DNA from: Fluviicola sp.
GTDB lineage: Bacteria; Bacteroidota; Bacteroidia; Flavobacteriales_D; Crocinitomicaceae
Direction of reading: 5' to 3'
Assembly: GCF_029266855.1 (NCBI RefSeq)
Contig: NZ_JAQSWB010000009.1
Coordinates: 1 to 64,000 of the forward strand
DNA length: 64,000 bases
The notes beneath the pieces are model-generated. The model saw nothing but the letters and a program-made list of their open reading frames with translations. It did not search any database and had not been told where the DNA came from. Position 1 is the first letter of the stretch. Each line of letters begins with the position of its first letter. A program made the position numbers and the translations under genes. Shown here piece after piece: positions 54,275 through 55,861 of this stretch.

Positions 54275-54301
54275 CTTCAAATAGTAAATTTATTTTAAAG
54301 G

Positions 54302-54332
54302 CCTCGTTTGTTAACTCAAACGAGGTTTTTTT
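54302..54332. terminator. Rho-independent terminator
   Basis: Stem cctcgtttg (54302-54310) with caaacgagg (54317-54325), then seven T. Located between the T9SS gene and the convergent MNIO gene. Confidence 0.9.
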
Positions 54333-54338
54333 ATTGAA

Positions 54339-55478
54339 TCACCACCCCTGTTTCCACTTCTGTGCGATTCGCAAAGCCGTTTCCAGCATATAGGGCGACC
54401 ATTTTTCGATTTCCCAGGAAGAATGTGCCAATGACGATCGATGGAGTGAACGAAGCGCTTCATTGTAATCTGCCGAGTGTTCGAGTATGGAAGACAATTC
54501 GACTTGCTGTTCGTACAATTTTGCCGATTCGGGAACCGGTTCGTTTAGTGAAATGGATTCTTTCGGCAAAAAATCTGTAACTGAAATGGATTGATTTCGT
54601 GAATTGAAAGTATGGATAATTGACTGCATTCGTTCGAAATCCATTTGGAATTGGCGCTGACTTTCCATTGTATGAAGTGCAATTCCCAATTGTTCCAATA
54701 TGACAAACTTTAGATTCTTACACAAAGGCAATGTTTTTCTCAGCAAATCAAAGACAGCTTCCGGAACTGCATCGTCGTGTGTATCTCTCCGGATAGTACG
54801 TTCGGGCCGGATTCCGGATGATTCCCAACTTCCACCGGAAATATGAATCTCCCGCACTCGGTCGAGCGGATAGGCCCGGATCAATGTTTCAAAATCGAGT
54901 GAAAAGTTTTGAAGCTGACAATACAGGTTGTGCAGGTCCAGAATAATGAATCCGTTAACGGGTTCAATCAACCGTTCCAAAAATTCTCCATGACGTTGCA
55001 CTTCATCCAAAGAATAGGAAAAAGCCAGGTTTTCCAATCCGACAGGACAGGAACAGGCTTCCTGGATGCGCTGCAGTCGATCAATACCAATCGCCAGCGT
55101 TTCGGAAGTGTATGGAACAGAGATTGGTGCACCTTTATGGAAATCCTCGCCGGTCATGAAACCGAAATGCTCCGTTATGTGATCGAACTTGAAATTAGCG
55201 GAAACCTTGCGCAAATGATCGAGCCAGCGTTGTTGTTCGGTCGTCCATTTCCCTGAAAAAAGTGAAAAGTAGACACCATGACCTATAAGCCTTCCTTCCT
55301 GGCTGAAAGCCCGGAGGAGTTCAACAAACCAATCCGGGATCTCACGGACTTTGTATAAGGTATCGAAAGACCATTCGATTGCCTCCACTTTTTCAGAAGC
55401 AAACAAGGGCAAGGTTGCTTGTAAAAGCTGGTTATCTAGATTACACGAAACCCCCGAACGTATTTTTGAAACTGACAT
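54339..55478 (-). CDS. DUF692/MNIO-family multinuclear iron oxygenase with C-terminal extension
   Basis: 379 aa. The DUF692 TIM barrel spans about 5-290 with the family's metal and active-site pattern intact: H67 (GHGVYFSLFSG), E103-H104 (ITEHFGF), E149-N150 (VGLENLAFS), D181 and N184 (LDLHNLYC), H212 (REIHISGGSW), D232-H234 (RRDTHDD), E262. Relatives (MbnB, TglH, ChrH, BufB) use two or three iron ions to modify Cys residues of ribosomal peptides, each with a partner protein. Residues about 291-379 form a helical extension that may stand in for such a partner. The gene starts directly after the stop (TAA then ATG) of the Cys-rich peptide gene, implying coupled translation and an enzyme-substrate pair. 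Confidence 0.88.
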   Translation of the reverse strand: MSVSKIRSGVSCNLDNQLLQATLPLFASEKVEAIEWSFDTLYKVREIPDWFVELLRAFSQEGRLIGHGVYFSLFSGKWTTEQQRWLDHLRKVSANFKFDHITEHFGFMTGEDFHKGAPISVPYTSETLAIGIDRLQRIQEACSCPVGLENLAFSYSLDEVQRHGEFLERLIEPVNGFIILDLHNLYCQLQNFSLDFETLIRAYPLDRVREIHISGGSWESSGIRPERTIRRDTHDDAVPEAVFDLLRKTLPLCKNLKFVILEQLGIALHTMESQRQFQMDFERMQSIIHTFNSRNQSISVTDFLPKESISLNEPVPESAKLYEQQVELSSILEHSADYNEALRSLHRSSLAHSSWEIEKWSPYMLETALRIAQKWKQGW

Positions 55479-55688
55479 TTATCCCATTCCACAAGCAGGA
55501 CATGGTTCGCAATGAGTTGTAGTGGAATTGGAGCTATCCGTTCTGTTTTCATTGAGTTGCTCGTTCTTTTTTCTGATGTCTTGTTTCTCACAAGAAGTTG
55601 TTGCAGCAGAGATAGTTGCAACGGAAACACCTAAAGTGATTGCTTGTAGTAAAGATGATGATAGTTTCATGGCTTCAAATTTTTTCAA
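55479..55688 (-). CDS. Candidate RiPP precursor peptide for the MNIO enzyme
   Basis: 69 aa from ATG 55688 (63 aa if ATG 55670 is used). An N-terminal amphipathic/hydrophobic segment (LLQAITLGVSVATISAATTSC) resembles an export or lipoprotein signal with Cys33, though the TTSC box is weak. A charged, Asn/Ser/Thr-rich linker follows (DIRKKNEQLNENRTDSSNST). The C-terminus is HCEPCPACGMG, with Cys60, Cys63 and Cys66 in a CxxCxxC arrangement. Short peptides with clustered C-terminal cysteines directly upstream of DUF692 genes are known substrates of MNIO enzymes. Modification (for example thio-heterocycles) and metal binding are inferred. There is no transporter or protease gene beside it. Confidence 0.75.
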   Translation of the reverse strand: MKKFEAMKLSSSLLQAITLGVSVATISAATTSCEKQDIRKKNEQLNENRTDSSNSTTTHCEPCPACGMG

Positions 55689-55861
55689 AAGATAAACCTT
55701 TCACCCAAAAAGGACAAATTTATTATTTTAAATGTGTTTTTCTTTGATTGACTTGTACACAACGAAAAACATGCAGGAATCTTTATTTTGCACACATAGA
55801 CAACTATTCTTACCATTTGTGCGTTTCAAAGAAGGAAGAAAAGCCCTTTCACAAACCATCC

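Follow-up and report, generated by a model that had tools for sequence, protein, structure and literature searches.

A peptide gene followed directly by a DUF692 (MNIO) gene in the genome of a Fluviicola strain (Crocinitomicaceae) raises the question of which peptide-modifying system the two genes form, and whether the enzyme could act without a separate partner protein. Here, the window denotes the whole stretch of DNA analysed, 64,000 nucleotides in length. A similar kind of locus was described by Chen et al. (PMC12636315), comprising a precursor with a lipobox and a CPACGMG end and an MNIO with a C-terminal helical domain, with no obvious partner gene. We consider the pair to be a DybAH-type DAG-RiPP system of this kind (probability of about 0.9). 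It is a real system of the kind described, ordinary for its family, and its features, in window positions, are as follows:

54297..54330, no strand assigned: 14-pair hairpin and T-run between convergent genes, terminator-like (-20.1 kcal/mol, z -5.4)
54339..55478, minus strand: 379-aa MNIO (DUF692), ChrH/DybH subfamily (PF05114, NF050165 alignment)
54342..54593, minus strand: C-terminal extension of the MNIO, residues 296-379, aligning where ChrH-family enzymes are reported to have a helical-bundle domain (PMC12636315)
55479..55670 (stop included), minus strand: DybA-like precursor peptide, 63 aa, with signal peptide, lipobox Cys27, polar linker and CPACGMG end (NF050125)
55482..55502, minus strand: CPACGMG core, codons for residues 57-63; macrocycle and hydantoin predicted here by homology to DybA (PMC12636315)
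55509..55511, minus strand: codon of Cys54, an additional, non-conserved cysteine three residues ahead of the core (precursor comparison)
55590..55592, minus strand: codon of Cys27, predicted lipobox cysteine and acylation site, judged by motif (hydrophobic stretch, then TTSC27)
55686..55718, minus strand: promoter-like element, TTTG (55715-55718) and TATCTTTTG (55686-55694), by motif match

The zero spacing noted in the original prediction was confirmed by the minus-strand ORFs: the precursor ends with HCEPCPACGMG and TAA and directly abuts the ATG of the MNIO (spacer of 0 nt), both frames being intact at the junction. The peptide itself had been read as 69 aa from a TTG at 55688, which we replaced by 63 aa from the ATG at 55670, because all 17 genus precursors open with MKLS or MKLP and the TTG sits within the TATCTTTTG promoter-like element. 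The three tail cysteines reported earlier as Cys60, Cys63 and Cys66 do exist, but they are now numbered Cys54, Cys57 and Cys60, and are joined by the lipobox Cys27 as the fourth cysteine of the peptide. TTTG plus TATCTTTTG resembles a promoter of the Bacteroidota type; AATAATAAATTTGTC of this element is common to the window and to two of the three other Fluviicola loci compared (L004 and L007) and is absent in the third (L005). Of the two neighbouring genes, neither of which looks like a cluster member, the convergent one encodes a type IX secretion tail (PF18962), and the divergent one encodes PKD domains plus a CHU_C tail.

The MNIO matches PF05114 (MbnB_TglH_ChrH, 5.4e-32), and its best NCBIfam model is ChrH (NF050165), with 399.4 bits over residues 9 to 376, below the equivalog cut-off of 600 bits. 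Judged by these scores, it would belong to the ChrH subfamily without being ChrH itself. Nine iron ligands of TglH are named in PMC10880893, and the corresponding predicted ligands are H67, H104, E149, D181, N184, H212, D232, H234 and E262; seven were placed via the TglH alignment, H67 and H104 only via an alignment with 3BWW and motif context. All nine positions are invariant across a 25-sequence alignment, in keeping with the earlier claim that every recognisable metal-site position is present.

The C-terminal extension had been proposed to replace a partner protein. It aligns with 24 other enzymes of the alignment, DybH and two ChrH-type enzymes among them, as well as with the ChrH model. 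The mel system encodes this domain apart from its MNIO, as a protein of its own that is needed for activity (PMC12636315). A comparable split was found in a genome of the same order (G009), where a 292-aa MNIO is followed by an overlapping 85-aa ORF, i.e., a split ChrH-like enzyme (L009). The extension profile matches this separate ORF (hhalign E 2.3e-5, probability 76%, 25% identity over 61 columns), which supports the view that the extension does the partner's work. With the mel domain being both separate and required, the proposal is plausible, and the idea of a fused partner is plausibly right in broad terms, yet it has already been published (PMC12636315). A search by sequence of the solved structures in PDB with the extension profile returned no MbnC or TglI chain, its three matches being weak and to unrelated proteins (best E 0.018). 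The GC content of the L009 contig is 0.489 over 15 kb vs. 0.404 in the window; as the contig looks foreign in our judgement, L009 was not counted as a Bacteroidota case. The ORF ahead of its split enzyme (L009:123-371, G009:C41) ends with TGACGMG, with Thr-Gly replacing Cys-Pro, and therefore lacks the ring-forming first cysteine.

The precursor scores 51.8 bits against NF050125 ('chryseobasin-related MNIO class RiPP peptide'), above the curated cut-off of 40, and the prediction that the C-terminal cysteine region is the modification site of an MNIO/RiPP pair is supported. A DNA pattern for CPxCGxG followed by a stop has a single match in the 4.3-Mb window genome, at this operon, while in 14 genomes of the genus all 16 matches lie inside the operon and a reversed control pattern gives 1 match; the pattern does not catch variants, for instance the G109 A1 peptide with its CTACGMG end. 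This confinement to the operon, compared with the reversed control, means that the peptide motif is not due to chance. Orphan substrates of the MNIO elsewhere were considered as well and rejected, given that every pattern match (1/1 in the window genome, 16/16 in the genus) belongs to the operon. A tblastn search of the plasmid collection with the precursor peptide (1e-5) gave zero matches.

The same peptide carries a predicted lipobox. Among 94 precursors from 79 loci, 92 have A, S or G ahead of a cysteine at the lipobox place, and TTSC is the commonest form in the precursor family (16/93). The lipobox of the window peptide is likewise TTSC, and its threonine at position -3, generally less usual than leucine, counts somewhat against the lipoprotein reading. 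The signal-like N-terminus noted before is thus present, but the lipobox Cys27 had been overlooked, and its presence points to a membrane-anchored lipopeptide and not simply to an exported peptide. The window genome encodes a lipoprotein pathway, with a single match above the cut-off for each of Lgt, LspA and Lnt.

Among known systems, the closest in kind is DybA/DybH from Dyadobacter crusticola, in which DybH alone converts CPACGMG to a macrocycle plus a hydantoin (-4 Da) and the lipobox cysteine of DybA is triacylated, making the product a lipoprotein or 'DAG-RiPP' (PMC12636315). We recovered the locus of D. crusticola DSM 16708 as L127, and its 50-aa peptide fits the published DybA numbering (Met26, Asp27, Ala46). 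The window shares with it the two-gene core, the combination of lipobox and CPACGMG, the fused C-terminal extension and the absence of an adjacent partner gene, and differs from it in the sequence of the enzyme (about 60% identity), in the length of the peptide (63 vs. 50 aa), in the extra Cys54 and in that its relatives in Fluviicola hold two precursors. The locus therefore corresponds to an already characterised MNIO pathway in kind, but not in sequence identity. MelA1/MelH/MelHc from Melainabacteria have the same core motif and a C-terminal domain that is homologous according to PMC12636315, but there the domain is a separate protein and the precursor exceeds 30 kDa and has a signal peptidase I signal (PMC12636315). 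Bufferins, oxazolins and methanobactins share the MNIO superfamily (BufB, HvfB, MbnB), and some bufferins and oxazolins carry lipoprotein signals (PMC12636315 and PMC12452194); they differ in their core motifs, separate partner proteins and copper-binding products. The locus extends the known range of lipidated MNIO peptides to Fluviicola, without altering what is known of their chemistry.

As the MNIO lies under the ChrH equivalog cut-off (399 vs. 600 bits), its chemistry was inferred from DybH. The precursor would be made with a lipoprotein signal, and in the cytoplasm the MNIO would bind its C-terminal CPACGMG, by homology needing no separate partner protein. The enzyme would then remove four electrons from the core, forming a Cys57-Cys60 macrocycle and a hydantoin as in DybH, so that the core would keep one free thiol and be 4 Da lighter, probably without S-methylation. 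Lgt, LspA and Lnt, the general lipoprotein pathway, would subsequently acylate Cys27, cut off the signal peptide and anchor the product in a membrane. Macrocyclization, lipidation and membrane location are all predicted by homology. As to the role, our guess is that the peptide works in the cell envelope, either binding a target with its ring or reacting through its thiol; the authors of PMC12636315 mention co-occurrence with SusCD and note that the ring resembles the B ring of nisin-type lantibiotics.

Two other products had to be weighed against this one. The MNIO could additionally S-methylate the thiol (+10 Da) in the fashion of Chryseobacterium, whose ChrA/ChrH pair has the same CPACGMG end and an MNIO of similar length with a C-terminal extension (PMC10214503). 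The identical motif, the near full-length match to NF050165 and an Archangium homologue that yielded both the -4 Da and the S-methylated product (PMC12636315) would all agree with such an outcome. However, the window MNIO is only 43–44% identical to the two enzymes above the ChrH cut-off (L018 and L019), compared with 59–60% to DybH, and a tree of 31 enzymes (L009 as outgroup; L009 and L021 flagged as long branches) places it with DybH and the enzymes of Chitinophaga and Hymenobacter, L018 and L019 being split off (99/99); within this non-Chryseobacterium clade, it is not grouped with DybH itself. In addition, the members assayed from Dyadobacter, Chitinophaga and Hymenobacter gave -4 Da (PMC12636315). 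We regard a ChrH-type product as very unlikely. The Chryseobacterium system also differs from the window in the signal of ChrA, which is of the signal peptidase I type and lacks a lipobox (PMC12636315), in a cluster that further encodes ChrI, ChrE and ChrP, and in its S-methylated product (PMC10214503).

Even lower odds are given to a peptide of the bufferin or methanobactin type that is exported and chelates copper or iron, the metal-binding product suggested in the original prediction. Its attraction lies in the CxxCxxC spacing of Cys54, Cys57 and Cys60 in the window, which recurs in the A1 peptides of three Fluviicola loci (L061, L062, L063). The conserved precursor motif is CPxCGxG, though: the place of Cys54 holds a cysteine in only 4 of the 94 precursors (79 loci, window excluded) and a serine in F. 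chungangensis A1, and the CxxCxxCGMG unit is consequently not conserved beside DUF692 homologues. Moreover, in contrast to its 399 bits for ChrH, the MNIO reaches 91.7 bits for BufB (NF050167, cut-off 310), 76 bits for HvfB and 22 bits for MbnB (TIGR04159, cut-off 325), the product of DybH does not show the absorbance seen in methanobactins and bufferins (PMC12636315), and the signal of the precursor is of the lipoprotein type. A copper chelator was rejected on the family scores and the non-conserved Cys54, and this analysis found no evidence for a copper- or iron-binding product. Cys54 might still change the product of the DybAH-type pair.

In order to see how such pairs are distributed, genome contigs were scanned once; 292 relatives were found and the best 80 kept, which tilts the survey towards the window's own type. 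Within these best 80 of 292, a precursor ending with CxxCGxG lies ≤ 700 nt upstream in 79 loci (one precursor in 65, two in 13 and three in 1, making 94), and 67 of the 94 precursors end with CPACGMG. In the sole locus without a precursor (L076, a Chitinophagales MAG), no ORF of at least 35 aa ending in the motif was present in the 600 bases upstream. In even samples, both counting the window genome, the ChrH model (E 0.001 or better) found matches in 14 of 199 genomes from the order and in 26 of 395 from the phylum, but only 7 and 6 of these, respectively, exceeded 300 bits, and the remaining weak matches look like other MNIOs. The two precursors (of 94) outside the lipobox pattern belong to L100 (Taibaiella chishuiensis) and L131 (a Chitinophagales MAG), where lipobox precursors stand beside one with an apparently plain secretion signal; one MNIO may therefore serve both export routes. 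Ten precursors in 9 of the 80 loci (L070, L071, L072, L073, L079, L110, L118, L124 and L128, from Saprospiraceae, Lewinellaceae and unplaced Bacteroidota) contain a further motif, CxxxCx[ILV]DH, located after the lipobox and ahead of the terminal CPxCGxG, possibly a metal site or a second modification site.

Within Fluviicola, the window stands out by its single precursor. The NF050125 peptide was found in 9 of 14 genomes, eight of which have two copies (A1 and A2, adjacent in 8/9 carriers) and the window one. The five other genus loci L004–L008 all have two precursors ahead of the MNIO, the A2 stop overlapping the likely MNIO start in L004, L005, L007 and L008 but not in L006, and the carriers G592, G594 and G595, which by coordinates are L062, L064 and L061, all possess the MNIO. 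A tree of the genus precursors (16 of 17, without G127 A2) separates A1 and A2 into two groups (86/89, no branch starred; 0/500 shuffles as low). The window precursor falls in A1 and is 89% identical to the A1 of L063, and its MNIO belongs to a seven-row tree group whose other six members carry two precursors. Most simply, by parsimony and with one assembly for the window strain, the ancestral Fluviicola operon had A1 and A2 and the window strain lost A2. The opposite course, in which a single precursor was ancestral and A2 was gained repeatedly, or an assembly fault has removed A2 from view, would agree with the single precursor in 65 of the 74 non-Fluviicola precursor-bearing loci (best 80 of 292) and with a branch order near the window, within the seven-row group, that the tree leaves unresolved. 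We consider it unlikely, since the A1 and A2 groups span the genus and take in the G109/L064 pair, whose branch lies outside the window's group, the six other members of the window's group all have two precursors, and both frames at the junction are intact.

Ancestral possession of A1 and A2 invites a further, rather doubtful suggestion: the Fluviicola system may normally be a two-peptide one, producing diverged lipidated macrocyclic A1 and A2 from one MNIO, possibly as a pair, with the window as a single-peptide variant whose Cys54 may alter the thiol chemistry. No account of the system in Fluviicola was found in the literature searched, and the main text of PMC12636315 mentions neither Fluviicola, Flavobacter or Saprospir nor two or multiple precursors; the two-versus-one pattern in Fluviicola is added here and is not claimed to be unpublished. 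It offers a natural comparison for probing what lipidated MNIO products do. The core codons of the window, TGTCCTGCTTGTGG, agree with the A2 of L007 and not with the A1 copies seen, a weak hint at crossing-over within the core that A1 and A2 share, the difference being one synonymous base in most copies.
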